Notes under the pieces: model-generated
What the model was told of the DNA's origin: nothing
The model's database searches: none
The model's input: only the letters and a program-made list of their open reading frames with translations
Shown: piece by piece, positions 3,237 to 17,404 of the stretch
How positions within the stretch are numbered: position 1 is the stretch's first letter
Layout: the number at the start of each line of letters is the position of its first letter
Made by a program: the position numbers and the translations under genes
Assembly (NCBI GenBank): GCA_945861565.1
Contig: CAMAUY010000018.1
Coordinates: forward strand, 1-64,000
DNA from: Akkermansia muciniphila
Lineage (GTDB): Bacteria; Verrucomicrobiota; Verrucomicrobiia; Limisphaerales; UBA9464
DNA length: 64,000 nucleotides
Reading direction: 5' to 3'

Positions 3237-3953
3237 CTACTCCCTCCACGCCTCGGCACTCAGCGGCAGTTCGTTTAATTCCGCCCGCGCTTCGCGCCAG
3301 GTTGGGTAGTGCTCCTGAAGGATGGCAACGAAACGCTCGCTGTGCGTCGGCTCCCTCAGGTGAACCATTTCGTGGACGATGACGTATTCGAGGAGATCCT
3401 TCGGCTTCTTCACGAGTTCAGTATTTAGGCGGATGTGGCCGGCGCAGTGGTTGCAGCTTCCCCACTTGGTTTTCATCCGTTGCAGGAAATAGCCGGTGAC
3501 TTTCACCTTCAGCTTGGGCTCCCACTTTTGAATGAGTGGGCGCACGACATCGTGCAGCAGCGATTTGTGCCACTCGTGGATGATCTCGGCGCGTTTCCCG
3601 GAATCGCTGCCGGGGCGCACTGTGAGGGTGATGCGTTTGTGGTCGAGAGAAACGGATGGCTTGGCATCGCGGTGAGCGACGGACAGTAGGTGCCGCCGGC
3701 CCCAGAGGTAATGGCTCTCACGTTCGATAAAGCGGCGGGGCGTTTCGCGGGCCTGGTCCCTGAGCTTCTCCTGTTGCTGCCGAATCCATCCAAGACGGGA
3801 GATCGCGTAAGCGCGGGCGACATCCAAGCGGGTCACGGTGGGGGCGGCCAACGTGACGCGGCCATCGGGCGGATGAACGGAAAGATGGACGTTCTTGATG
3901 TCTTTCTTCGTCACCCAAATCGAAAGCTCCCCAATCTGGATCGTTTCGGTCAT
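3237..3953 (-). CDS. YgjP-type M48 family metallopeptidase (DUF45)
   Basis: A 238-aa soluble protein. The zinc site is plain: HEMVH at 194-198 followed by H204 and ERF, and the family-specific KWGSC at 163-167. The N-terminal half (residues 1-120) is the beta-rich YgjP/WLM-like front. Its ATG shares bases with the hsdR stop (TGATG), so it is last in the restriction operon and probably translationally coupled to hsdR. Genes of this family are often found next to type I restriction genes, but their job there is not settled; trimming or turnover of the restriction complex is only a guess. Length and motifs are complete. Confidence 0.85.
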   Translation of the reverse strand: MTETIQIGELSIWVTKKDIKNVHLSVHPPDGRVTLAAPTVTRLDVARAYAISRLGWIRQQQEKLRDQARETPRRFIERESHYLWGRRHLLSVAHRDAKPSVSLDHKRITLTVRPGSDSGKRAEIIHEWHKSLLHDVVRPLIQKWEPKLKVKVTGYFLQRMKTKWGSCNHCAGHIRLNTELVKKPKDLLEYVIVHEMVHLREPTHSERFVAILQEHYPTWREARAELNELPLSAEAWRE

Positions 3954-6900
3954 CAGTAGCCCGGTTGGTGTTTGATGATCTCGAAGATCGCCCGAGTCGC
4001 TGCCCGGTCCCTCGACATGATCGGAAAGAGCGCGTTCAGCACCTGTTTCTCACGAGTGTCGTCGCCCTTCCAGCCCGCCGGCGCGTGCTCGCGCATGGCT
4101 CGGTCGATTCGGACGGCAAGAGCCGCCCTTGCCTCTTGTTCCAGAGGTCTTTCCTCGCGCAGCACGAGCGCGCCGCCAGCGAGGATGTCGGGCAGGTTGT
4201 TATAGATCACGATGGCCTCCGGTTTGCCGTGAAGGACGGCAGGCACACCGGCAACGGCATCCTTCTTCGCTATGCGCTTCACGAGTTCCTCCGCCTTTTT
4301 GAGAAATGCCTCGTAGGCAGCGGCGTCGGCCCGGCTCTGCTTGATGAGGTCATCCAGGAGCTTCGACATCTCCGCGTAGAACCGCGGGTCGGTGAGCTGG
4401 TCGCGGATGATGGTCTTGCGGACGTTGTTGATGATGCCCTCGGCGATAGCGTTCTTCGACAGCTTGCCTTTTTCATTGAGCTTACGGGCGATGGCGTCGT
4501 GGATCCCGGTCTCGATGATCAACTCCGTGAGCGACAGCGAATTAAGGTTGCCCATGTCTGCCGCCGGGTCGGCTTGCACGTAAGTGTTGAGCAGATGGCG
4601 CATGTCAGCCTCGAAGGGCTTGATGTCCAGCTCCTCGCCCGAGTGCCTTTTGATGGCGGCGCGGGTGTCGCCATAAGACTCAACCTCCTTCTGCAGCGCG
4701 GCGGCCTCCTCCTCCGAGTAGCCGGCCTCGGTGAGATCCTGTGCGATATCGGCGAAGGATCGCACGAACGTGGCCACGGACTTGTAGAACGAGATGCGCA
4801 GCGGTTCCGTGTCGGCCATCGCCTGCGGGTTGGCGGCGTCGCCGCAGAAGTAATTCAGGAACTGCTCCATTTCACGCGGGAGCTTCACTGGCTCGCAGAG
4901 ATAGCGGAGCGCCTCGCGCGCGGCATCGAGCTTTTTCCTCCCTTCCTTGAGCCAGTCTTTCAGTTCGACGTTGTTGTCGCCACCGTTGCCCTGATCAATG
5001 TCCAGTTCGTCTGAGCTATAGACCGCGATAGCCTCCTGCACGTCATCGAACAGCTTCTTGAAATCCACGATGTGGCCGTAGACCTTGTCTTCACCGTCAA
5101 GCCGGTTCGTGCGGCAGATAGCTTGGAAGAGGTTGTGGTCGTGCAGTTCATTATCGAGGTAGATGTAGGTGCAGCTCGGCGCATCGAAGCCGGTCAGGAG
5201 CTTGCTCACCACGATGAGAAGCTTCATGTTGGCGGGCTCCTCGATGAAGCGGCGCTTGGCTTCATCCTCATAGGCTTTGGTCGTCTGTCCGTTGCTGAGG
5301 ACGTACTTCGTGTAGGTATCGAATTTGTAGCGTTCGTTGCTGTTGGGCGGCTCCAGCACAATCGCACCCGGTTGCGGCTCAAAGGACGTAATGATGCCGC
5401 AGTATTGGCCGAATGGCTTGCTTTGGAAGATGCGGTAATAATGGCAGGCGTCGTAGATGCTCGCGGCTACGAGAATAGCCGTACCCCGGTCGTTGTTCAG
5501 GCGCGGCTTCGTGTCGAAATCGTGGATGATGCTGGCGGCGATACGAGCCTTACGTTCCTCGGCGCTCATCAATTCCTCCATCGTCGCCCAGCGCTTGCGG
5601 ATGATGGCTTTCTGAAAATTATTCAGCGTCTTGGTCTTTTGCTCGAAATACGCCTCGATCGCCTTGGGGGAAGTGATGCGTTGCGGCACATCGCGGGCCT
5701 CATATTTCAAATCGAGAATCACTCCATCGGCCACACCCTCGTGAAACTTATAGGTGTGGATGTAAGTGCCGAAAACGTCCCGTGTAGTCTGCTTGTCCTT
5801 CCGCAAGAGCGGTGTGCCGGTGAAGCCGATGAAGAGCGCGTTCTCCAGCCAGCGCTTCATCTGTTTATTCATGTCGCCGCCCTGGGTGCGGTGGCACTCA
5901 TCCACAAAGACGTAGAACCGGCCATGCACAGGCGGCGGCGGGCCTTTGACGTCCGCGGGATCGAACTTGTGCAGTAGGGCGCAGAGCAGCCGGGGCGAGG
6001 CCGCACCGAGTTTGGCGACAAACTCCGCCCGGTTCTGGATGCGGGGCGAAGGCGAGTTCTCGCCGATCACTCCGGCGTTCTTCATCACGCCCTCGATCTG
6101 CTTGTCCAGTTCGTCGCGGTCGGTGACGACGAGGATGCGGGCCTCTGGATCGTGTTCCAGCAGCCACTTGGCGAGCAGCACCATAAGGATGCTCTTGCCG
6201 CTGCCCTGCGTGTGCCAGATGACGCCGCCCTCGCGGATGCGAATGCGTTCCTGCGCCGCCTTCACGCCCGCGAACTGATGCGGGCGCGGGACCTTCTTGA
6301 TGCCGTTGTCGAAGATGATGAAGTTGCGGATCAGGTCGAGCAGGCGGGACTTCTCGCATATCTCGGCCAGTGGACGGTCCAGCAAAGTGCCAACGGTAAG
6401 CGCAGCGGTGTTCGCCGACTTCCACTCCACGAAAAACTCCTCCCTGGTGGTCACAGTGCCGTAGCGCAACCCTTGCGAATCGCTGCCCGCAAAAACGAGC
6501 TGCACCGTGGGGAAGAAACCCTTGTTGAAAATGTCCTCCTGGTTGGTGATGAGCTGGCGCACGCCGTCGGCGATTTCGACCGAACTGCGCTTCAGCTCAA
6601 TGACGCCTACCGTGATGCCATTCAGGTACATCACCAAGTCCGGTCGCCGCTCGTAACCGCCGCGCAAGGTCACTTCCTCGGCGAGGGCGAAGTGATTGTT
6701 CTCTGGGTGCTCCCAATCCACCAGATGCACTGTGTCGTGCGGCCTGCCGGCGGCAATCTGCACCGACACCCCGTAGCGCAGCAGTTGGTAGGTGCGCAGG
6801 TTGGCCTGATAGAGCGTGATGCCGGTGGCGTCCGCGACAACCAGCAACTTTTGCAAGGCGGCGGAAATGTGCGCCTCGGAATAGCCGCGCCGCTTCAAAT

Positions 6901-7057
6901 TCGCCCGGAGCAGGTCCGTCTCAATGCAGCGGTTATTGTCCCGCTTGTTCCACTCGCCGAGGTAATCGTAGCCGAGGCAATCGGAATGGGTCTTGTCCGT
7001 GAACAGGGAAATGACGCGGTTCTGCGTCTTGCGTTCGGAGCGGGGGATTTCAGGCAT
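3953..7057 (-). CDS. hsdR: Type I restriction endonuclease subunit R
   Basis: A 1034-aa motor-nuclease subunit of a type I restriction complex, which translocates unmethylated DNA with ATP and cuts it at a distance. The N-terminal nuclease core has RPD140 and E154-L-K156, the PD-(D/E)xK triad. The superfamily 2 helicase follows: HTQGSGKS (283-289, Walker A), DECH (386-389), FTGTP (412-416), the motif V block KLLTGFDAP and motif [12 protein letters not shown] helical C-terminus follows for binding HsdM. Its stop overlaps the start of the metalloprotease. The gap to the upstream 747-aa gene (7058-7249) holds an apparent read-through extension of that gene. All active-site residues are present, so it should be functional. 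Confidence 0.95.
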
Positions 7058-7093: not shown

Positions 7094-7249
7094 TCAAACA
7101 CCAGTCAGGAGGTTGATTGCTTCGGTGGCATCGGCGAACTGGCCCGTGAGTTCTGGTTTGTCGGTGAAATGATACGAAACGAAACGCGCTCCATCGCGTT
7201 CCAAGCGACTGAAGAAATAGCAGGCGTTCTTGGCGGACTGCGGGGACGG
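7094..7249 (-). other. In-frame C-terminal extension after a TGA stop
   Basis: Directly after the TGA at 7250-7252 the same minus-strand frame stays open for 51 codons to a TGA at 7094-7096. The peptide (PSPQSAKNACYFFSRLERDG, then ARFVSYHF and onwards) has ordinary protein composition and reads as a natural continuation of the preceding beta-rich domain. Either the 747-aa gene carries a nonsense change (for example CGA to TGA), the stop is read through, or the base is a sequencing error. Confidence 0.6.
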
Positions 7250-9493
7250 TCAAACCTGAATCAATGGGAGAAGTTTCAATGCCTTACCCGAATCCTTCTT
7301 CGACAAGTAAAGAGTTTCGACATCCAGCCACATCGCCATTTCGCGAGTCTCCTTGATGAAATCGCTGTTGCTGCCCATCAATATCGCCACGTCCGTCTCA
7401 AACACACCGCGCCGAGGACGACAGTTGGATGCGAGAATCATCTGCGTTTCTACCCATGTGTCCGCGATTGCCTCGCGCAGTTTCTGGACTTCTGCGAGGA
7501 GTTGTTGATTCCGCGACTCGGCTTCAGCTTGCCCGACAACTCCCCCGTGGCCGCCCCAGTCGTTGCGCATCTTGTTCGTGGCTGAGAATATCGCGCCCAA
7601 CTCCTTTCGGCTGAGAGCATCAGGCAGCGAGAGGGAGGGGTCAGCAAACATGTCCGCGCAAAGTGACCTGTCATTCTTGGCGTCCTCCGGCTTCTTCCCA
7701 TTCTCATTGAGCAGGTCACGCGTCTGCTTGCCGAGATACTCAACCACCAGTTTCCAAGTCCCGAAGGTCGCCCGGTTGAAGCTCAGATTCTGCTTCTGCA
7801 TCGTCTCCATCAGCTTCTGCCGGTGAGGGACGAAAACCGCATCATTGGAATTGAATGCGCTCAGCAGGATGACGCTGACGAACTCGGCCGTTCCTTCGAA
7901 GAAATGGAGGAGGTGCTCATACTTCGTCTTGAAGTCCTGGCTTGGTGTCGCTTGCCAAGCCCTGAGGATTGATGCCTGCGGGAACGGAAGCGTTTCAAAC
8001 CACTGGTCGAGCGATTCGGATGCGTGCTGTTTGATGCCTCCCGCCAGCCGCCTTGCCAGACCATCAATCCTTTCTTGGACTTGTGGGGCTGACTTGGGGT
8101 TCGCCCAAAGCTCACGGCGCAGCTCAGCAATCTCGTTCTGGAGAGCCGTGACTGTGTTGTGCTCGGCCATGATACGCGTTTCGAGTTCCAGCATCTGTCG
8201 TTGTGTCTGGAGGTCAGGCACGAAGACGCGCAGTTCCCTCAAGGTCTGCTTGTTCAGCTTCGGGATGAAGCCAGTCTTGGTTTGTTCACGAAGTTCTTTA
8301 CCGAACTCGGAGTTTAGAAACCGGGCCACGAAACGCGCATTTGAACGTGCCGGATCAATGACGACTTGAGCGTAGTTCTGAGGCTTCAACGTCAACTCAC
8401 CCGGTGATTCCAACACATCGCTGTTGCCGATCATCGGAATGTAAATCGCGTTCTCTAGCGGATGAAATGCGAACTCATCGCCGGGCCGCCCCAGCTTAAT
8501 CCCGGATTTCACATCTCCTAGCTCGGCAAGATTCGAGGCTTGAACGCCGAAGCGTTTTTCAGCCGCCGTCATTGCGTCCGAAGCGCGTAGGTGTTCTATG
8601 CTTCGGAAGGTGTCGGCGGCGACGAAACGACCGAGTTCCAACGAGCCACCCTCCGTTCCTTGTCGAAAATTTGCGATAACCTGAGTGTTCGTGTTCGTGT
8701 CGGCGGATAACTGGGCCACAAACATCCGCGTTGATGGCCTTCGGCGAACGACGACCAAGTAGGCGGGAATGTTCGTGTATGGCGCAAATGTTCCAGACGG
8801 CAATGCCAGCGCCGCTTCCATTTCGAGGCCGAGTTCGCCGAATCGGTGAAAGACAGACTGCTGCTGGAAGAAGAAGGAAGGGGTGACGACGAACAATCCA
8901 ACGCCGGAAGAACTCAAACGCATGGACGCTGCAACCATCACCAGATTGCCAAGGTCGTCGGCCAGTTCGACGGCTTCCCCGGACGTGAGTGTGACCTTTA
9001 GCGGATGGTGTGCCCTCGATCCCATCGGTAGGATGCTTGCAACGACATCCAACTCTTTTGTCTCTTTTCCAAGCACAAGCAGTGGATCACCCAATTGCCA
9101 ATCCGCTTGTGGAACTAGAACCTTCCCGAGCGTGTGCTCGCCTGTATTCTGCGTAATGGCCAACGTCTCGATTGCCCCTGACGCCTCCTGCAATACAGCA
9201 GCGAGAAAACCGATTCCGGCCCAAGGATCACAAATGGTTTTGGGGGAAATGCCTTCGGCCAGTGAAGCAAACGCTCGCGCCAACCATTCTGGGACGTAAA
9301 ACTGGCCCTCGCTGCGATGAATGCGCGTGGTCAGGATGTAACCAAAGGCGATTAAATCATCTGCGGAAAACTCGGCCTTTTCCTTCTTCAAAAACTCAGC
9401 GAACTCCTCGGGTCGGCGGAAGTCCACTCCGCGAAGTTTGGCCATTATCTTCCGGAGATTTTCGCTACTGCGTGGCTGAGTTGGTTTGTTCAT
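7250..9493 (-). CDS. Degenerate N6-adenine methylase / HEPN-motif fusion protein
   Basis: A 747-aa protein inside the type I operon. Residues about 60-330 follow an HsdM-like methylase fold: a weak motif I, DPWAGIGF, at 89-96, but no NPPF/Y; the motif IV position reads ILPMGS, so adenine methylation is unlikely. Residues about 330-450 look like the end of a target-recognition region (IPKLNKQTLRELRVFVPDL, then a coiled coil). The C-terminal third has RNDWGGH at 643-649, which fits the HEPN RNase signature R-N-x(4)-H, inside a helical domain, then a beta-rich tail. An in-frame TGA at 7250 may truncate 51 more residues. A likely inference is an accessory effector that senses DNA state and acts through a HEPN nuclease; this is unproven. 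Confidence 0.7.
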   Translation of the reverse strand: MNKPTQPRSSENLRKIMAKLRGVDFRRPEEFAEFLKKEKAEFSADDLIAFGYILTTRIHRSEGQFYVPEWLARAFASLAEGISPKTICDPWAGIGFLAAVLQEASGAIETLAITQNTGEHTLGKVLVPQADWQLGDPLLVLGKETKELDVVASILPMGSRAHHPLKVTLTSGEAVELADDLGNLVMVAASMRLSSSGVGLFVVTPSFFFQQQSVFHRFGELGLEMEAALALPSGTFAPYTNIPAYLVVVRRRPSTRMFVAQLSADTNTNTQVIANFRQGTEGGSLELGRFVAADTFRSIEHLRASDAMTAAEKRFGVQASNLAELGDVKSGIKLGRPGDEFAFHPLENAIYIPMIGNSDVLESPGELTLKPQNYAQVVIDPARSNARFVARFLNSEFGKELREQTKTGFIPKLNKQTLRELRVFVPDLQTQRQMLELETRIMAEHNTVTALQNEIAELRRELWANPKSAPQVQERIDGLARRLAGGIKQHASESLDQWFETLPFPQASILRAWQATPSQDFKTKYEHLLHFFEGTAEFVSVILLSAFNSNDAVFVPHRQKLMETMQKQNLSFNRATFGTWKLVVEYLGKQTRDLLNENGKKPEDAKNDRSLCADMFADPSLSLPDALSRKELGAIFSATNKMRNDWGGHGGVVGQAEAESRNQQLLAEVQKLREAIADTWVETQMILASNCRPRRGVFETDVAILMGSNSDFIKETREMAMWLDVETLYLSKKDSGKALKLLPLIQV

Positions 9494-9540
9494 AACGCGT
9501 TTCTAAAGTGATCCGGTGAAGGCTTGGTGCGGCAGCGACT

Positions 9541-9669
9541 TCATACCAATTTTGTCCTCCCCGTGATGAGTTCAAGCATCGTGATCTGCTTGAGGGCGCG
9601 AGGCTTCTCCCTCAGCCCGGCATCCCGCCACTGCTCCATCTCCGCCAGCTCCGGAATGAGGATGCTCAT
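9541..9669 (-). pseudogene. Micro-ORF duplicating the HsdS C-terminal tail
   Basis: A 42-aa frame whose ATG overlaps the stop of the AlbA_2 gene (ATGA). Its end, REKPRALKQITMLELITGRT-K-L-V, matches the end of the intact HsdS, REKTRALKQAMMQELLTGRT-R-L-V, residue for residue apart from a few changes. It is therefore a second copy of the HsdS conserved C-terminal helix, left behind on the far side of the AlbA_2 gene. It could be expressed because of the overlap, but it is too short for a specificity subunit. It is best read as a scar of insertion or partial duplication. Confidence 0.8.
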
Positions 9670-11015
9670 GGTTTTGCCTCTTTTACCTGCCAGACGCCAC
9701 CCTTGGCCGCGCCGATGCGGGCGATCAGATTTTGCGTTTTGAGATACCTCAGATTGTTCTCCACCGCCGTCGTGCTGAGGCCGAGCTGATGGGCCAGTTG
9801 CACGACCGTTACCTTGGGGTTGGCCGCGATGGCGCGGATGATGGCCGTCCGGTTTTCACCCAACCTTTCACCCAACCTTTCACCCAACCTTTCACCCAAC
9901 CCAGCGACCTGGCCTGGCGGCAGTGTAAACTCCACCCACAGGCCGGACGGCTCGTAACGGATCCGGGGCGGCGGGGCTTGGGCGGCACGGCAGGCTTCCC
10001 ATATCCGCTCGATGCCGCGTCCCCATGCCTCGATCATTCCCGCCCGGAAAAACGCGTTCGCCACATCCGGATTGAAGGGGTGCGAGGGATGTTTGCCCTT
10101 GAGCTTGGCCACCGTCCAGGCCGGCGGCAGCTCGCCGGGGTTCCACAGCATTAGCTTGTCGGGATAGACACTGATCTGGATCGGCGTCCCCGAGGAATAA
10201 TCCTTGTGGACCACCGCGTTGAGCAACGCCTCGCGCAAGGCCGCCTCTGGCACCGGAAATGTCTCGCGCCGTTGGAGGCCCTCGTAGCTGAGTCCCGCCT
10301 TGAGATACTTCGTCAGCAGCAGGTCCATCGTCTGCGTGACCTGCGTGAAGAGGTCGCCATGGATTTCGTCGTGATAGAGCAGCTCCGTGTTGGTGCGGAA
10401 GAAGCCGATCTTCACGAAGGCTCCCGTGGTGAACTTCTCGGGATCGGGGTGAAAGAGCAGCACCGCTGCCCGCTTCAAATACGGGCCATCCCGCAGCCGC
10501 AGCTTCTCAATCAGCGCGGGCGTGGCTTCCCGCAGCGTCGTGGAATCCAGGCGATGGCTCTGACGCGCCAGTTGGCGAAAACGGTAGATGGCCGCCCTCG
10601 ACAAATCCTTGACCGCCACGTGCGGCACCGGAACGGCATCCCAGTGTTTGCCTTGTTTGCGCAGGAGAAATTTGTCCAGCGCCGCGCCCTTCAGCTCCTG
10701 CTTCGTGCTGCCGCTGCGCAGGTGATACTCGCCCTTGTAGCTCACGGGATACGGATAAGGCTCGACGACGATCTCCAGCCATTCCTTCCCGCTTTTCTCG
10801 CGCAGGTTCACTTCCACGATGATGCCGAGGATGTCCCGCACCTTGTTCGGAATCTCCTCCATGAGCCGTGCCGCGTTCGGCACGCCGATGACCACGCCCT
10901 TATCATTCCGGCCGATGTGCAGCACGCCGCCCTCGGCATTGGCAAATCCGCCGATCCACTTTAGGAACTCGTCCCGCCACGTCTCCTTCCACTCGATCTG
11001 CTGGTCCTCTTTCAT
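9666..11015 (-). CDS. AlbA_2 / GHKL ATP-binding, DNA-binding protein
   Basis: A 449-aa protein of the 'RecG-like' or Schlafen-AAA_4 type. The N-terminal AlbA_2 domain shows EWKETW, FANAEGG and LHIGRNDKG (residues 8-40). A GHKL-type ATP site follows (EALLNAVVHKDY and WNPGELPP, about residues 255-300). The C-terminus is a winged helix (VVQLAHQLGLSTTAVENNLR). A linker near residue 380 repeats GERL from a 12-bp DNA repeat. Its ATG overlaps the hsdS stop (ATGA), so it is translated with the restriction operon. Proteins of this kind recur in defence islands and some type I loci, where they may regulate or add to restriction; the exact role here is unknown. Confidence 0.8.
   Translation of the reverse strand: MKEDQQIEWKETWRDEFLKWIGGFANAEGGVLHIGRNDKGVVIGVPNAARLMEEIPNKVRDILGIIVEVNLREKSGKEWLEIVVEPYPYPVSYKGEYHLRSGSTKQELKGAALDKFLLRKQGKHWDAVPVPHVAVKDLSRAAIYRFRQLARQSHRLDSTTLREATPALIEKLRLRDGPYLKRAAVLLFHPDPEKFTTGAFVKIGFFRTNTELLYHDEIHGDLFTQVTQTMDLLLTKYLKAGLSYEGLQRRETFPVPEAALREALLNAVVHKDYSSGTPIQISVYPDKLMLWNPGELPPAWTVAKLKGKHPSHPFNPDVANAFFRAGMIEAWGRGIERIWEACRAAQAPPPRIRYEPSGLWVEFTLPPGQVAGLGERLGERLGERLGENRTAIIRAIAANPKVTVVQLAHQLGLSTTAVENNLRYLKTQNLIARIGAAKGGVWQVKEAKP
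9855..9902. repeat. Tandem 12-bp repeat, four copies, in frame
   Basis: The unit TTCACCCAACCT occurs four times head to tail, with one mismatch at the last base. On the coding strand it gives a repeated Leu-Gly-Glu-Arg in the linker before the winged helix of the AlbA_2 protein. Because the unit is a multiple of three, copy-number change would lengthen or shorten the linker without a frameshift. Confidence 0.9.
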
Positions 11016-12316
11016 ACTAGCCGCGTCCTGCCGGTGAGGAGTTCCTGCATCATGGCCTGCTTGAGGGCGCGGGTCTTCTCCCGCCGCTGCTCCAGCACCG
11101 CCAGCTCCCCGTCCATCTCCGTCAGCACCTCGGCGATGGCGGTTTGTTCGGGGAGTTCAGGCAGCCGGCACTCAATGCCTTCAACGTCGCCGTGCGAAAG
11201 GTGCTTCACGGTTGTGCTGGAGGTGACAATTTCGATTTCCTTCAACGGTTCGATCAATGCGTAGAAGGCGAATGCGACATTCAGTCCGGAGTTTGGCACG
11301 ACCCGGCCAACTCGCTGGTTCAGCAGCGCAGGACCTTTGTTCCACTGACAAGGAAGGAAATCGCCGTCCATCCCAATCAAGACATCGCCGTCACGGACAA
11401 CAAATGCCTCCTCATACCTGGCGTTGTAGTGGAAGACTTGGTCGTCGCTCTTGAGGTCACGATTCTTCACGAGCCGGATGCCTTCGCCCTTTTCGTTGAA
11501 GAAGGCGGAACTGAACGGAAAGCCGACTTGGAATCGAAGCAAAGTGCCCAGCCTCTTCACCTCCCACTCGCCGTGGAAGCCGGGGAGGCGGAGACTCAAG
11601 GGAGAATTGACAATGGACAATGGAGAATTTCGAGAAGAGCCATCCTTGTTGTCCATTTTCCATTTTCCATTTTCCATTGGTTTTGTCGGCGGCGACAAAA
11701 GCGCCTGCATGGCGGCCTGTTTGAGGTCGCGCTTCTTGGCGATGAGCCGGTCCAACCCGCCGAGCAGCCCATCCACATCGCTCAACGCCGTTGCGATGGC
11801 GCGTTGTTCCTCAACAGGCGGAGACGGCAGGAATAGCCGCTTCATAGCGCCACCGTTGAGATGCTTCATCGTTGTGCCGGTCTCAATCTCCTTGAATGCA
11901 ACCCGGCCTCGTTCGGAGTTGAAGTATTGGCAGTAATATCCAGGTTCAGATTCCTGCTTCCTCAGCCGCGAAATAATCAAGGCATGGCAATTCGCTCCAA
12001 CAAGCTCGGGAGGAACGACCGTGGTTACGCCAATATCTCCCGTCTGAATCGTGAGCAAATCGCTCGCCTGCAAACATGACTTCTTATTGCGGGCGTGGAA
12101 TGCCTTCGAGACGCGTTTGATTCCGTGAAAATTGAAGCCGTTTTCCTGAACGTTGTATCCTTGGATGTAGAGAACGCCATCATCGCCTGCGACGTAAGCT
12201 GTGGTTGCTGTTCCAACGAAGCCGTTGGTCAGAAGGGTTGTGAGCGAGCCAAGCGTCTTCACCTCCCACTCCTTCGGGATGACGCCGACTTCGGTCTGTT
12301 TGTAGCCAGGCTTCAT
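11012..12316 (-). CDS. hsdS: Type I restriction specificity subunit
   Basis: A 434-aa subunit that recognises the bipartite DNA target for both HsdM and HsdR. Two target-recognition domains are visible, each opened by a conserved stretch (GVIPKEWEVKTLG near residue 11; GFHGEWEVKRLG near 246) and closed by a helical spacer (EEQRAIATALSDVDGLL; PEQTAIAEVLTEMDGEL). Between them, residues about 213-242 come from a simple-sequence DNA insert (PMENGKWKMDNK...NSPLSIVNSPLS), which lengthens the linker that sets half-site spacing. It starts 1 bp after the stop of the small upstream gene, and its stop overlaps the AlbA_2 start. Both domains look intact. Confidence 0.93.
   Translation of the reverse strand: MKPGYKQTEVGVIPKEWEVKTLGSLTTLLTNGFVGTATTAYVAGDDGVLYIQGYNVQENGFNFHGIKRVSKAFHARNKKSCLQASDLLTIQTGDIGVTTVVPPELVGANCHALIISRLRKQESEPGYYCQYFNSERGRVAFKEIETGTTMKHLNGGAMKRLFLPSPPVEEQRAIATALSDVDGLLGGLDRLIAKKRDLKQAAMQALLSPPTKPMENGKWKMDNKDGSSRNSPLSIVNSPLSLRLPGFHGEWEVKRLGTLLRFQVGFPFSSAFFNEKGEGIRLVKNRDLKSDDQVFHYNARYEEAFVVRDGDVLIGMDGDFLPCQWNKGPALLNQRVGRVVPNSGLNVAFAFYALIEPLKEIEIVTSSTTVKHLSHGDVEGIECRLPELPEQTAIAEVLTEMDGELAVLEQRREKTRALKQAMMQELLTGRTRLV
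11599..11680. repeat. In-frame simple-sequence insert in hsdS
   Basis: This stretch of hsdS is made of GGAGAATTGACAATGGACAA-like and CATTTTCCATTTTCCATTTT-like runs, quite unlike the flanking GC-rich codons. It is in frame and encodes the linker between the two recognition domains. A related run occurs in hsdM at 13537-13568. Confidence 0.75.
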
Positions 12317-12317
12317 A

Positions 12318-12575
12318 CTAATCCTTCAACACGTAGTGTGTGCCACTGCTAACGCCCTTTCGAAGTAGGCGCTTCTCGGTAACGGCTCGATTGAAAAAGG
12401 CGATTGCCTGGTCATATCCAATCCCAGTGATTTCGCGAAGCTGCTGGTTTCGGATCTTTTTATTTTCTGCTAGAAATGCTTTGGCGGTCTTCCAACAAGT
12501 CTCGAATTGTTGGTCGGTTAGTCTCGTTGGAAGTTCGCGGTTTCTTGCGTCCATAGCATTGGGTTTCACTTCCAT
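12318..12575 (-). CDS. Small protein between hsdM and hsdS
   Basis: An 85-aa protein. I chose the ATG at 12575, which overlaps the end of hsdM by 10 bases, because the longer open frame upstream only shadows hsdM. The body is helical: LTDQQFETCWKTAKAFL, then IRNQQLREITGIGYDQAIAFFNRA and EKRLLRKG. Together these resemble a small winged-helix or recognition-helix fold, where a helix-turn-helix is followed by a hairpin (SGTHYVLKD). No enzyme motif is seen. Its place between the methylase and specificity genes, 1 bp before hsdS, suggests a subunit or regulator of the restriction system. The family is unknown to me. Confidence 0.65.
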   Translation of the reverse strand: MEVKPNAMDARNRELPTRLTDQQFETCWKTAKAFLAENKKIRNQQLREITGIGYDQAIAFFNRAVTEKRLLRKGVSSGTHYVLKD

Positions 12576-15058
12576 ACCGCTCCCATCTTTTTGAGGTGTC
12601 CGTCCACGTGGGCGGCGAGCGTCGCCACTTCGTCGGTGAGCTGCGGCAGCGGGGTGGCGTAGCGTTCGGCGAGCTGGCGGATGCGGCCGGTGAGGGTTTG
12701 CGAGACGCGGTCCAGCTCGCCCTGCACGGCGGCGGCGAGGGTTTGTAACCATTTGTCGTCCACCACGAGGGTCTGGATGTCGGCCTCGGTGAGCGTGGGG
12801 TATTTGGCGTCGAGCTTGGCTTCGAGGTCGTCCTGCGCGGTCTTGAGCCGGGCCTTGGCGTCGTCCTGCTGGTCGAGCAGCGCGGCGTAGGCGTCGAGGG
12901 CCTGGCGTTCGTCGGCGTAGTCGGGGTCGCGGCCGATTTCCTTGAGGCGGGCCTTCAGGGCTTTGGCGGTGATTTTCTGCTTCTCGCCCTCGCCTTCGAT
13001 GACTTCCGCGAGCAGCCCTTCCTCGCCGCTTTGTTCCTCGCGTGTTTCGTCGAGCTGCTGCTCGATGCCGGCGAGTTCGGCTTCGAGGGCGGCGATGGTA
13101 TCGCGCTCGGCGGCGAAGGTGCGGGCGATGAGCAGAGGGGCGGGGACGAGGTCGGACTTGAAGCGGCGATTGCCGACTTTGAAGTCTTCCTTCTCGGGCC
13201 AGACAAGTTTGTTGTCTTTGTTTCTGATCTTAACAATTTCGCGGGGCAACGCGCCCGCCTTCCACCCGGCTTCGGCGATGAGGTAGGAATCGTCCTGCAT
13301 GGTCTCGGCCCAGTAGTCCATGAGGTGCTGATAGACATCGTAGGCGTCGAGCAACGGCGCGGTCTTGAAGGTGGCGAGCAGGTCCTCGGCGATGGTCTCG
13401 ATGAGCGGCTTGGGATGGCCGTCCTTGGCCAAGCCCTTGAGCCGCGGGACGGAGGCCGTCTGCCATTTGGTGAAGAGCTTCCGGGCCTTGGTGGTGAAGG
13501 CGGTGAACTCGGGGTGGCCGAAGATGGTCCCCTTCAGTTGAGAATGGAGAATGGATAATTGAGAATAGCCGGGGCGCAGCGGTTTGAACAAGGCGGCGCG
13601 CAGGCCTGGCATGATTTTCCAGTAGTTGCCGAGAGCATCGAGGTCGCGCTCGGGGATGCCGCCGCGTAGGTGGCCGTCGATGTCCTGCAAATCCTCCGGC
13701 TCGGTGCTGTCGATGTAGCGCGGGAGGTTGAGGTTGTAGTCGTTCTTCGGGTCGGCGATTTCCGAGACCGGCACCATGCGGGCGTAGCGCGGGTCGCTTT
13801 CATCCTGGCGCGTGAAGGTGTCCACGATCTTGTGGAGGTCCTGCTCGCGGAGACGGTTCTTCGGGCCGTCCTTCTTGAAGCCTTTGGAGGCATCGATCAT
13901 GAAGATGCCTTTGCGGGCGGTGGCATTTTCTTTGTCGAGCACGACGATGCAGGCGGGGATGCCGGTGCCGTAAAAGAGATTGGCGGGCAGGCCGATGATG
14001 GCCTTCAAGTATCCGGAGCGGACGAGCTGCTGGCGGATGACGGCCTCGGCATTGCCCCGGAAGAGAACGCCGTGGGGGAGAATGCACGCGCCTTTGCCCG
14101 TGCTCTTCAGGGAGCGGATGATGTGCAGGAGGTAGGCGTAGTCGCCCTGCTTCTTCGGCGGCACGCCCCAGGTGAAGCGCTGGAAGTGGTCGCCGCTGCC
14201 GCCCTCGCCCAAGGTGAGGCCGGTGGACCACGTCTTGTCGGAGAAGGGCGGATTGGCGACGACGTAGTCGTAGGTTCGGAGCTGCTCGCCGTCTTTGAAC
14301 TTGGGATCGAAGAGCGTGTTTCCCGAGAGCACATTGGCCGTCGGGAAATCGTGCAGGATCATGTTCATGCGGGCGAGACCGGCAGTGGTTACGTCCTTTT
14401 CCTGCCCTTCGAGGGTGATGTGCTTGTCGGCCTCGGCGGCGACTTTCAGCAACAACGAACCGGAGCCGCAGGTGGGATCGTAGGCGGTGGTGGCGGCGAT
14501 GGAGTTGGCTGGCGAGATGCCGATAGCCTTGGCCATGATGCGGCTGACCTCGGACGGGGTGTAAAATTGGCCCTTGCTCTTGCCGCTCTGGCTGGCGAAG
14601 TGCCGCATCAGATATTCGTAGGCATCGCCCAGGATGTCGTCGTTCTCGGCGCGGTTCTGGGAGAAATCGAGCGCGGAGTTCTCGAAGATGGCGATGAGAT
14701 TTCCCAGCTTTTCGACCTTCTGCGCGCCGTCGCCGAGCTTGTTCGAGTCGTTGAAGTCGGGGAAATCGCTGCGGGCGAGGCGGGAATTGGCGTCGATCAG
14801 CGGCTGGATGACCTGGGTGTTGATCTTGTCGCCGATGTCGTCCTTGCCCTTGAGGGCGACCATGTCCTTAAAGCTGGCTCCCTTTGGGATGACTACCGGT
14901 GGGGCGAAGTCATCGGAGTCGCCGTATTTATCGGAGACGTATTTGATGAACAGCATGAACAGGACGTAGTCCTTGTATTGGCTGGCATCCATGCCGCCAC
15001 GGAGTTCATCGCACGAAGCCCAGAGGGAGGAGTAGAGATCGGATTTCTTGATGGCCAT
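12566..15058 (-). CDS. hsdM: Type I DNA methyltransferase subunit M
   Basis: An 830-aa N6-adenine methyltransferase that, with HsdS, marks host DNA and licenses HsdR. The HsdM N-terminal helical domain is at 8-45 (LYSSLWASCDELRGGMDASQYKDYVLFMLF region). S-adenosylmethionine motif I is DPTCGSG at 194-200 and the catalytic motif IV is NPPF at 269-272. The protein is longer than many HsdM proteins because of a C-terminal coiled-coil region (residues 600-830) of the kind found in fused or long M subunits. Near residues 497-507, GYSQLSILHSQLK comes from a simple-repeat insert. It is the first gene of the operon, and an hsdM fossil lies immediately upstream. Confidence 0.95.
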   Translation of the reverse strand: MAIKKSDLYSSLWASCDELRGGMDASQYKDYVLFMLFIKYVSDKYGDSDDFAPPVVIPKGASFKDMVALKGKDDIGDKINTQVIQPLIDANSRLARSDFPDFNDSNKLGDGAQKVEKLGNLIAIFENSALDFSQNRAENDDILGDAYEYLMRHFASQSGKSKGQFYTPSEVSRIMAKAIGISPANSIAATTAYDPTCGSGSLLLKVAAEADKHITLEGQEKDVTTAGLARMNMILHDFPTANVLSGNTLFDPKFKDGEQLRTYDYVVANPPFSDKTWSTGLTLGEGGSGDHFQRFTWGVPPKKQGDYAYLLHIIRSLKSTGKGACILPHGVLFRGNAEAVIRQQLVRSGYLKAIIGLPANLFYGTGIPACIVVLDKENATARKGIFMIDASKGFKKDGPKNRLREQDLHKIVDTFTRQDESDPRYARMVPVSEIADPKNDYNLNLPRYIDSTEPEDLQDIDGHLRGGIPERDLDALGNYWKIMPGLRAALFKPLRPGYSQLSILHSQLKGTIFGHPEFTAFTTKARKLFTKWQTASVPRLKGLAKDGHPKPLIETIAEDLLATFKTAPLLDAYDVYQHLMDYWAETMQDDSYLIAEAGWKAGALPREIVKIRNKDNKLVWPEKEDFKVGNRRFKSDLVPAPLLIARTFAAERDTIAALEAELAGIEQQLDETREEQSGEEGLLAEVIEGEGEKQKITAKALKARLKEIGRDPDYADERQALDAYAALLDQQDDAKARLKTAQDDLEAKLDAKYPTLTEADIQTLVVDDKWLQTLAAAVQGELDRVSQTLTGRIRQLAERYATPLPQLTDEVATLAAHVDGHLKKMGAVWK
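13537..13568. repeat. In-frame simple-sequence insert in hsdM
   Basis: The bases TTGAGAATGGAGAATGG and ATAATTGAGAATA form an AT-rich run inside otherwise GC-rich hsdM, in frame. The same AATGGAGAAT and AATTGA words occur in the hsdS insert. This points to one family of small repeats entering two genes of the same operon. Confidence 0.7.
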
Positions 15059-15062
15059 GACG

Positions 15063-15354
15063 TTAATTCAAACAAGGGTCGCGGCGGAAGGTGTCGGCGT
15101 GCTCGCGGCCGAAGTTGGCTTCGATGCCGCGCAGGGGGAGATTCATGACGGAGAGGCGGCGGGTGTTGGCGTTGCTCTTCTGTCGGAGGAGTCCTTCGGC
15201 GAAGACTTGGATTGGGCACGGGCCATAGGGCTTAAAAGGACTTGAAGCTGGTTTGACCCTCCGGGGCGCTCAACTGCTGCAGGACCACACCCAAGAAACG
15301 CTTTTCCAGCGCAGCGTTGTCGGTGTCCTTCTCAGACGGGGCGATCCAGAGCAT
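15063..15354 (-). pseudogene. Second type I methylase (HsdM) fossil
   Basis: From ATG 15354 the frame gives MLWIAPSEKDTDNAALEKR, the opening of a different HsdM family, before it runs out at TAA 15232-15234. A second frame, ending at TAA 15063-15065, gives NTRRLSVMNLPLRGIEANFG and then REHADTFRRD, the stretch that follows motif I and precedes NPPF in the same family. Large internal pieces, including both catalytic motifs, are missing. The fossil ends a few bases before the ATG of the living hsdM. It matches none of that gene, so it is a remnant of another system. Confidence 0.78.
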
Positions 15355-15439
15355 CGGAAGTTTTGAGGTGAAGCGCAGGCTAGAAGTCCCAACGGGTTAC
15401 GCCAAGGCAGCATTTGCCTGCGCGATGGATTCCGCTCCG

Positions 15440-16237
15440 TCACGCCGGGACGTACTGTCGCCTCACGGCTGCCTGAACGAACTCCGTCACCGTTTCCAAG
15501 TCGGCCGCCAACGCCTCCCGCTCGAACTGATGACGATCCACGCCCGCACCCACCCACCCCTTAAAGACCTCCACGTCACCCGCGAACAGACGGCGAAGTT
15601 GTGTCGGTGCCTGGGTCAGCAGATGAGCCTCCACGCCGGCTTCCTGCCCCAGGCGGACACATTCGGGCAGGCGACCGTGGAACCACCCGTCCGGCAATGC
15701 TGTCACGGTCCGGGCCGGATGTAGCGAGAACCAGAGCAACCGCACCAAGGCCGCCCGTAGAAACACCGCGCTGGCTCCCACCGGCCCATGGCATTCCCAG
15801 CCGTCTTCCTTCTCGGCTCGGATGGTAAGTTCCAACGCCGTCTCGGTTACTCGCCACGCGAGGAATTTCGGCGCTGCCGGCCAGACTCCCGCCCGATTGA
15901 AACGAGGGCGCAGGGTCAGCAAAAGCTCACGCTCCCGGGCTAGCGCGGCGGCTTCGTCCGGGCAGGCCTGCCATTCAATGCGAGCGGCCTGGTGCAACAG
16001 GCGGAGCAGGCGGCGAGGCAGCCGTTCCGGATTGGCGACGCGGTAGTTGTTCAGACGCTTCCGTAGATTCTTCGCCTTGCCCACGTAAAGCACGGCGTCG
16101 CGCGAGTCACGCAGCAGATAAACACCCGGATGCGTGGGCAGCGTGCGGAAGAAGTCGCGCCCCAGCCGATCCACCAAAGGCTGGGCATCGGGCAGAAAGT
16201 GGGGTTGCACGATCGACACCCTGCAATGGGGACGCAA
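15440..16237 (-). CDS. GIY-YIG nuclease (UvrC/Cho-like N-terminal type)
   Basis: A 265-aa protein. Residues about 38-115 carry the GIY-YIG fold as used by UvrC and Cho: PGVYLLRD (GIY position), VLYVGKAKNLRKRL (YIG position with the catalytic Arg), and a downstream Glu in AALARERELL, followed by LRPRFN. The family makes a single-strand nick near DNA lesions or acts as an endonuclease. The C-terminal part (120-265) lacks the UvrC RNase H-like and HhH domains, so it is a stand-alone nuclease similar to Cho. It is transcribed towards the restriction operon but separated from it by the hsdM fossil, and is probably independent. Confidence 0.8.
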   Translation of the reverse strand: MRPHCRVSIVQPHFLPDAQPLVDRLGRDFFRTLPTHPGVYLLRDSRDAVLYVGKAKNLRKRLNNYRVANPERLPRRLLRLLHQAARIEWQACPDEAAALARERELLLTLRPRFNRAGVWPAAPKFLAWRVTETALELTIRAEKEDGWECHGPVGASAVFLRAALVRLLWFSLHPARTVTALPDGWFHGRLPECVRLGQEAGVEAHLLTQAPTQLRRLFAGDVEVFKGWVGAGVDRHQFEREALAADLETVTEFVQAAVRRQYVPA

Positions 16238-16330
16238 TCGCCCGACAACGCCAATTCGGACAGTGATTCAGTGATTCGGTGGTGTATCAGTTTGGTTGCC
16301 AAGCTGGGTTTTATGTGAATCCTGTCTCGA

Positions 16331-16522
16331 ATGACCCAAAACGAAATAGAGGACAAATTTAGCGATTTAGAAACTGAGATTCACGCTGCCAAAGACGATG
16401 CGAGTTCCGCCAAAGCGCGGGTTGTTATCCTTCAGGGTATCGTAGAAGCTTTGGCTAAGGACACCGCGCTGTCTGAAAAAACACGCGCAACACTTGAAGG
16501 GGTGCTCGCGGAACTTAGTTGA
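16331..16522 (+). CDS. Small coiled-coil protein
   Basis: A 63-aa acidic protein made almost entirely of helix-forming residues with heptad spacing (IEDKFSDLETEIHAAKDDAS, then VVILQGIVEALAKDT). No domain is recognised. It is divergent from the GIY-YIG gene, with about 90 bp between starts that could hold both promoters. The composition and clear heptads make it a plausible real gene. Confidence 0.5.
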   Translation: MTQNEIEDKFSDLETEIHAAKDDASSAKARVVILQGIVEALAKDTALSEKTRATLEGVLAELS

Positions 16523-16621
16523 TGAGCTTAATTATCTCATCGATTTCCCAAACATGTCAGCCGTGGGCAGGAAGTGCGTCGGCCGCCAACCCTCCCGTCC
16601 TACTTCGACGAGGAGCCTGCA

Positions 16622-16981
16622 ATGACGAATAAATTCAAACTGCTCGCACTCGACTGCAGCGTATGCAAGACCGAGAGAGTGATGCAACCGACCACCGTGT
16701 CGAAGATGAGCAACCCGGTGAGAGCCATCGGCATCATCCTGCTGATCCCGTCATTCATCGGGATGCTGTTTGGGCTCTTGATGATGTTCGTGAGTTTAAC
16801 CCCTTCAGCAGTGGCGGCGGATGACAAAGCTCGACATGGCTTTGGCGTCCTAATGGTTGGGTTTTCGGCCATTATCATCGTGTTGCCGTCCTTCGTCCTC
16901 GGCCTCCTGGGCTGGCTGCTCCTGATGAAGAAGAAGATCTACAAGTGTCAACGTTGCGGCTTCATTCTCGATCGAGCTTAA
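16622..16981 (+). CDS. Two-helix membrane protein with split zinc-ribbon cysteines
   Basis: A 119-aa protein. The start at ATG 16622 is chosen because GAGGAG lies just upstream; an earlier in-frame ATG at 16574 lacks this. CSVC (residues about 13-16) and CQRC (near 109-112) frame two long hydrophobic segments (IGIILLIPSFIGMLFGLLMM region and IIIVLPSFVLGLLGWLLLM region). The four cysteines could bring both cytoplasmic ends together around one zinc ion. No enzyme motif is present and the function is unknown. It is the last credible gene before the island's right edge. Confidence 0.65.
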   Translation: MTNKFKLLALDCSVCKTERVMQPTTVSKMSNPVRAIGIILLIPSFIGMLFGLLMMFVSLTPSAVAADDKARHGFGVLMVGFSAIIIVLPSFVLGLLGWLLLMKKKIYKCQRCGFILDRA

Positions 16982-17404
16982 GGGAAAGTGAACGAGAACG
17001 AAGTAGGCCGACAGAAACAGCTATAGGCCATTTCCAACTCCTCGCAGTACCAGCCATATCGGAACCCATCCTTCGCAAGCAATCTGCCACCCAAGGTTTC
17101 CGAGCCGCTATTGGCTCAAGCAATTGGGATACACCCATGGGTCTCGGGGGAACATTCCGCGGCGTGGGTGCTCAAGTTGGATCGCGGCGAGGATCAAATC
17201 GAGGATCCCACCCCGGTGTGTCCCCTCCCCCCCCGCCTAGCCGTGGGCGTCAAAAATGGCGACGCACAATTCCGACAAATTCCGACACCGGAAGTGCGCG
17301 AATGTGCGTTTTTGGAACAAATCGCCCTCATTTGTGAAAGTGCATCTTTAGCCTTTATTCATGCGGTGTTCATGCACTTTTCACGCACCATCGCGAAGTG
17401 GCAA
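16982..17404. other. Gene-poor stretch before the attachment-site remnant
   Basis: Open frames here are short, rich in Pro and Arg, and match no family I know. The sequence includes a C-rich run near 17223-17233. I see no gene, RNA or strong hairpin in it. Confidence 0.5.

Follow-up and report, generated by a model that had tools for sequence, protein, structure and literature searches.

The 64,000-nt stretch of DNA analysed here, called the window in what follows, carries a Type I restriction operon on its minus strand. Its genes lie in the order hsdM, a small ORF, hsdS, an AlbA_2 gene, a micro-ORF, orf747, hsdR and a ygjP/SprT gene. The genes, and the smaller features among them, are these:

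12566-15058, minus strand: hsdM, 830 aa (Pfam N6_Mtase, 2e-93; PADLOC MTase_I).
12318-12752, minus strand: small ORF, about 85 codons long from a probable start near 12575, between hsdM and hsdS; no family match.
11012-12316, minus strand: complete hsdS, 434 aa (Pfam Methylase_S, 1.7e-24; PADLOC Specificity_I, 3e-80).
11011-11108, minus strand: the last 98 nt of hsdS, the parent-type copy of the tail.
9666-11015, minus strand: AlbA_2 gene, 449 aa (SLFN_AlbA_2, HATPase_c_4 and a winged helix; Pfam).
9541-9669, minus strand: micro-ORF of 42 codons, translation MSILIPELAEMEQWRDAGLREKPRALKQITMLELITGRTKLV.
9653-9669, minus strand: non-hsdS start of the micro-ORF, ATGAGCATCCTCATTCC, 17 nt, a putative and only suggestive relic of an hsdR start.
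9540-9652, minus strand: relic copy of the final 32 hsdS codons and stop: 98 nt, interrupted at about 9612-9626 by 15 inserted nt.
9503-9544, minus strand: ORF of 13 codons starting from the ATGA with which the relic tail ends, with no known role.
7250-9493, minus strand: orf747, an HsdM-like N-terminal part without the NPPF motif joined to an HsdS-like C-terminal part.
3953-7057, minus strand: hsdR, 1034 aa (TIGR00348, 1e-139; Pfam).
3237-3953, minus strand: ygjP/SprT-like metallopeptidase gene, the last of the operon (Pfam YgjP-like, 3e-55).

The AlbA_2 gene lies between hsdS and hsdR and points the same way, in an operon where hsdM, hsdS and hsdR are all present; by position it is an embedded accessory gene of a Type I system. 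Its product passes the Pfam gathering scores for both of its named domains (SLFN_AlbA_2, 41.7 versus 25.3 bits; HATPase_c_4, 70.4 versus 26 bits), and from its sequence it appears to belong to the SLFN_AlbA_2/RecG-C-like ATP-binding family. The linker contains a 12-bp in-frame tandem repeat at 9854-9901 (minus strand; GERL units), and related genes carry different repeats near the corresponding point: GDGL-like in L054, RPES in L062.

The next full-length gene, orf747, has ILPM in place of the NPPF catalytic motif in its HsdM-like part. Codon 747 is followed by an in-frame TGA (7250-7252), and homology runs on beyond it to 7094: the 51 codons past the TGA (7094-7252, minus strand) agree with the C terminus of the L007 homologue at 44 of 50 positions. 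The TGA might be a nonsense mutation, a site of readthrough or a sequencing error. Relatives of orf747, at 55-67%, occur in four other bins (Kuenenia, Aminicenantes, Verrucomicrobiia and Acidobacteriaceae), adjacent to hsdS in three of them, and together these proteins look like an unnamed family. Viral contigs and plasmids were considered as the source of orf747 and set aside, the former having no relative and the latter only distant ones. One relative stands in a degenerate operon in L006 (about 9500-10000), just after an N-terminal piece of hsdM that is fused to an hsdS tail.

The original prediction was that the micro-ORF ends like HsdS, and so it does. The intact HsdS tail in the window ends ELAVLEQRREKTRALKQAMMQELLTGRTRLV, and the micro-ORF aligns to this tail with a protein score of 86, when the best of 2000 shuffles reaches 55, and a local DNA score of 48, when the best of 500 reaches 17. 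By blastn, hsdS finds a single match in the window's hsdS–hsdR interval (107 columns, 75.7%, E=1.7e-14), and comparison of the plus strand of the operon with itself returns one direct repeat pair. Once the 15-nt insert, which is in frame, is taken out, 9540-9652 and 11011-11108 are identical at 79 of 98 positions. The homology takes in the final 32 hsdS codons and continues through the stop for one further base (TGAA), but does not extend to the first 17 nt of the micro-ORF. The 42 codons have no Pfam match and no target recognition domain; their homology is to these last 32 HsdS codons only.

This copy is probably a decayed relic, judging from its substitutions, and not a working peptide. It differs from its own hsdS at 7, 5 and 7 sites in codon positions 1, 2 and 3, small numbers that show no sign of coding constraint; intact tails differ from the window's hsdS tail at 1, 1 and 7 (L166) and at 4, 1 and 12 (L060). 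Since the relic's differences are spread evenly over the codon positions, the amino acid sequence does not appear to be being kept. Among hsdS alleles compared ungapped over 98 nt—the row for L054 being out of register and unusable—the relic is closest to the window's own (79/98) and to that of L166 (78/98), followed by those of L060 (73/98), L061 (70/98), L063 (64/98), L062 (62/98) and L133 (61/98), although 98 nt is too short to resolve crossover mosaicism between the two tails. By this comparison the relic tail is of the lineage of the operon's own hsdS. It had been proposed that the tail might match a different hsdS allele better, but own and sister alleles match best and a foreign origin is rejected. 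A single ancestral orphan common to the window and L061 fares no better: the two orphans score 30 with one another versus 50 and 60 with their own hsdS, and an orphan is absent from L166 and L060, which are closer relatives, so independent events are likelier.

ATGA overlaps join the AlbA_2 gene to hsdS at 11012-11015 and to the micro-ORF at 9666-9669. The original prediction saw in this an AlbA_2 gene standing between two hsdS 3' ends and linked to each. The position and both overlaps are correct, but the right-hand ATGA is best read as the habitual overlap of AlbA_2 with the start codon of hsdR, not as an hsdS overlap, because AlbA_2 relatives lie directly upstream of hsdR and overlap its start in this way in L042, L054, L133, L161 and L163; relatives also adjoin hsdR in L135 and L145. 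The start of the micro-ORF, ATGAGCATCCTC, matches the hsdR start of L067, ATGAGCACCCTC, at 11 of 12 nt, a short match chosen among about nine starts; none of 2115 other ATGA contexts tested matched its eight variable positions equally well. L067 has no AlbA_2 before hsdR. HsdR starts in the window's operon class often read MS-T/P-L/I-GQPE. We take the 17 nt that open the micro-ORF as a putative relic of an hsdR start, and the resemblance is suggestive only. It had been thought, too, that translational coupling was preserved across the insertion. It was not: orf747 begins 47 nt past the stop of the micro-ORF, whose ATGA opens the 13-codon ORF instead. The idea of an accessory gene spliced into the operon at hsdS is right in outline, then, but the tail is local and decayed, and the downstream gene is not coupled.

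Related operons have other things, or nothing, in the same slot, as expected if the AlbA_2 gene is an accessory. The window's closest relative, L166, has the same order of genes and an HsdR that is 86% identical, but DUF262/GmrSD genes in the slot and no AlbA_2, and L060 likewise has DUF262/GmrSD genes and no AlbA_2. In L063 the slot is empty, hsdR following hsdS directly; in L062 it holds a 500-aa DUF4062/HATPase_c_4 gene, and in L061 a PD-(D/E)XK gene together with a second gene, of ~320 codons, that runs in frame into hsdR from the ATGA of the orphan tail (oriented 13179-17252; open frame of 1373 codons). The window groups with L060, L061, L062 and L063 in a single clade of the HsdR tree, and since their contents differ, the slot seems to have been refilled repeatedly. 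Each of the window's two larger passengers can also be found there alone. The order hsdS–AlbA_2–hsdR occurs in L042 and L135, and hsdS–orf747–hsdR in L004, L005 and L007, with an ATGA overlap between hsdS and orf747 in L007. Loci of the latter kind, with orf747 directly after hsdS, were what the original prediction needed to find; their hsdM and hsdR are only 25-32% identical to those of the window, however, and so they are not the window's operon minus AlbA_2.

How often does such a copy occur? Loci were fetched by HsdR similarity alone, and the interval between hsdS and hsdR was compared with three queries: hsdS, the stretch upstream of hsdS, and hsdR. Both genes were assembled in 17 loci, and the interval exceeded 14 nt in 15. 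A copy of the hsdS tail is present, at E<1e-6, in six of these 15 filled intervals (the window, L061, L062, L066, L073 and L074); L076 has a weak copy that is not counted among the six. All of the copies in the survey derive from the last 28-107 nt of hsdS. The rest of hsdS gave no copies in the intervals apart from cross-matches of its internal repeat, and hsdM gave none that convinced us; what the hsdM-side and hsdR-side queries matched in L062, L075 and L078 was short or repetitive-looking. Many of the surveyed loci come from draft assemblies, but L062 and L066 come from single-contig genomes, which makes an assembly artefact unlikely as the general cause. In L062, two tandem units of 238 bp (oriented 10545-11020) each comprise a GGGACAAAGGGGAC-type minisatellite and an hsdS tail.

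In L066 the first 14 codons of an AlbA_2 gene are fused to the hsdS tail copy, the anatomy being that of the window. L073 also provides the mirror case: the first 99 nt of hsdR are duplicated, 96% identical, to the left of a 1.6-kb block that stops exactly at the hsdR ATG (copies at oriented 10334-10432 and 12067-12165). Two further, selected cases are L058, with a tail copy at 93% over 107 nt, and L133. The latter is from the class of a Methylococcaceae genome, and in it hsdS is followed by a 57-nt insert and then by 15 codons of copied tail. In 210 genomes of another class, about 14 complete hsdS genes of the window's kind were found, and only the one in L133 has an orphan beside it; plasmids yielded 14 operons that share the HsdS tail and have a complete hsdS, and not one contains an orphan. 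The scar is frequent in the window's phylum and rarer elsewhere, and the process behind it is not universal. Plasmid loci L151 and L153 contain hsdS relics with no complete hsdS, and L138 an isolated tail relic (7511-7573) with no hsd genes within about 7 kb. A 30-nt match in L140 falls inside a small ORF whose translation is not HsdS-like, and was left out of the count. What looked like orphans in L131, L134, L135 and L137 proved to be contig-edge pieces or broken hsdS genes.

On balance, and with some reserve, we favor the view that the micro-ORF is a recombination scar, left when AlbA_2 came from an hsdS*-AlbA_2-hsdR* operon that recombined with the resident one in the hsdS tail. The gap between hsdS and hsdR would be a landing site for accessory genes, mostly putative defence genes, and AlbA_2 would have arrived there on a fragment of a foreign operon, probably after orf747. 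At the left end, homologous recombination with the resident hsdS in its conserved tail would have left AlbA_2 with its natural ATGA junction. The right end of the fragment would have fallen just inside the foreign hsdR*, a few codons from its start, and been joined to the hsdS tail 32 codons before the stop, duplicating the tail. Integration of a circularised fragment by a single crossover is one possible route to this arrangement. Such an event would leave hsdS intact and AlbA_2 still coupled to it, with the start of hsdR* and the hsdS tail abandoned together as a short, decaying ORF. The same reading would extend to L066 and the other loci: blocks enter with homology to the hsdS tail on their left, and end on their right at some arbitrary point a few codons inside the donor's next gene, where they become joined to an hsdS tail.

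The order of events could have been the reverse, an account to which we give a lesser but appreciable chance. Here hsdS–AlbA_2–hsdR would have come first, and a block made up of hsdS tail and orf747 would have inserted later at the start of hsdR, stranding a few hsdR codons on the left. The normal place of AlbA_2 is next to hsdR, on its upstream side, other loci have orf747 straight after hsdS, and L073 demonstrates insertion with duplication at an hsdR start; a two-step origin of this kind, with orf747 and the tail arriving after AlbA_2, fits nearly as well as the best explanation. Its difficulty lies in the tail, which is of the window's own hsdS lineage, when hsdS genes adjacent to orf747 elsewhere end differently (LMTAQIRV...). 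For the same reason, we reject the idea that orf747 carried the tail in from its usual operon: the hsdS tails there are unlike the relic. The absence of AlbA_2 from L166 and L060, moreover, suggests that AlbA_2 itself is probably a recent arrival.

We think it improbable that the tail is the remnant of a second hsdS, once present between AlbA_2 and orf747 and since deleted. Loci with several hsdS genes are common (PMC7394358, PMC3874165), and degenerate hsdS genes are to be seen in L134, L137 and L006, but the orphan tails beside complete hsdS genes are at most about 36 codons long, and random loss from about 420 codons would leave longer pieces as well. The orphans also match the hsdS of their own operon, which a copy of different specificity need not do. 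Slightly more doubtful again is the notion that the tail copy is a functional module, kept, whatever its origin, for starting translation of the next gene by way of GGGAGG and ATGA. The relic tail does have a Shine-Dalgarno-like motif, GGGGAGGA, ahead of its ATGA; most hsdS tails of the class end xTATGA, the start overlapping the stop, several with GGAGG shortly before; and a tail copy directly starts AlbA_2 in L133 and the hsdR-fused gene in L061. A tail copy therefore carries a ready-made start for the gene that follows, but in the window this is not evidently used, opening only the 13-codon ORF, and in L058, L074 and L062 the gene after the copy brings a start and a ribosome-binding-like site of its own. 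We regard the start so supplied as a consequence of these events, not their cause, and one that may help some of them to survive. That a random small ORF should resemble an HsdS tail by chance has nothing of weight to recommend it beyond the shortness of the motif, and we reject it given the shuffle tests, the DNA-level E=1.7e-14 and the recurrence of the copy in this position across unrelated operons.

That accessory genes can stand between hsdS and hsdR is already well known, and the window's operon is not a new system. Two papers describe PrrC as an accessory gene within the Type I operon of EcoprrI (PMC3874165), and DarTG2 in the E. coli RRDM island, where it occupies the hsdS–hsdR interval, with a metallopeptidase gene downstream and the site termed a potential recombination hotspot (PMC12255303). 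Like both, the window has an accessory gene inside a Type I operon, and like RRDM it uses the hsdS–hsdR slot and has a metallopeptidase gene downstream; unlike either, its cargo is AlbA_2 and a pseudo-methyltransferase gene. Copies of the hsdS tail as scars are not described in the searched text of PMC3874165 and PMC12255303. In the open-access literature searched, we came across no account of insertion scars made of hsdS tail or hsdR head copies.

In integrons and in cassettes that integrate at gene ends, the 3' end of a gene reappears on the far side of the inserted gene, much as here. Integrons and transposons are poor models for the window, though, since there is neither integrase nor conserved core, no recombinase gene lies between hsdS and hsdR, and the duplication is of no fixed length (28-107 nt across loci). 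A closer parallel is integration of circularised linear DNA into E. coli by a single crossover, which gave partial duplications of the target, 109-950 bp in sequenced clones, in 56 of 60 clones tested during a search for homology-facilitated illegitimate recombination (PMC3240628). There, too, no dedicated recombinase or transposase is involved and insertion is accompanied by partial duplication of the homologous end, but the system was a laboratory lacZ construct, whereas the window's tail is about 100 nt and its event is read from sequence only. The operon also resembles duplicated hsdS loci that switch specificity (PMC7394358) in having more than one piece of hsdS. It differs from them in that the operon has no recombinase gene and the second piece has no target recognition domain, being just a decaying, terminal coiled-coil end; we found no second hsdS with an intact recognition domain such as phase variation would call for.

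We offer, tentatively and as something that may well prove wrong, a broader idea: that the conserved 3' end of hsdS is a docking site that needs no recombinase. It would be both a patch of homology common to many Type I operons and a translation start already in place for whichever gene comes to lie beside it, made up of the Shine-Dalgarno sequence in the TGR codons and the ATGA. Accessory defence genes might then be swapped as ‘tail-gene’ units, each exchange being able to leave behind a tail copy as the next docking site.

The hsdS-tail scar is, in our view, a recurrent and datable footprint of the gain of cargo by restriction operons. Many anti-phage genes have been found through their location inside such operons, and how they got in has not been explained. 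A readable scar—part of an hsdS tail, or of an hsdR head—would date and orient these insertions, would mark the boundaries of the slot in the search for new embedded defence genes, and would make the mechanism of insertion testable by ordinary recombination assays. Its recurrence suggests how defence operons can acquire new genes while leaving the existing ones intact.
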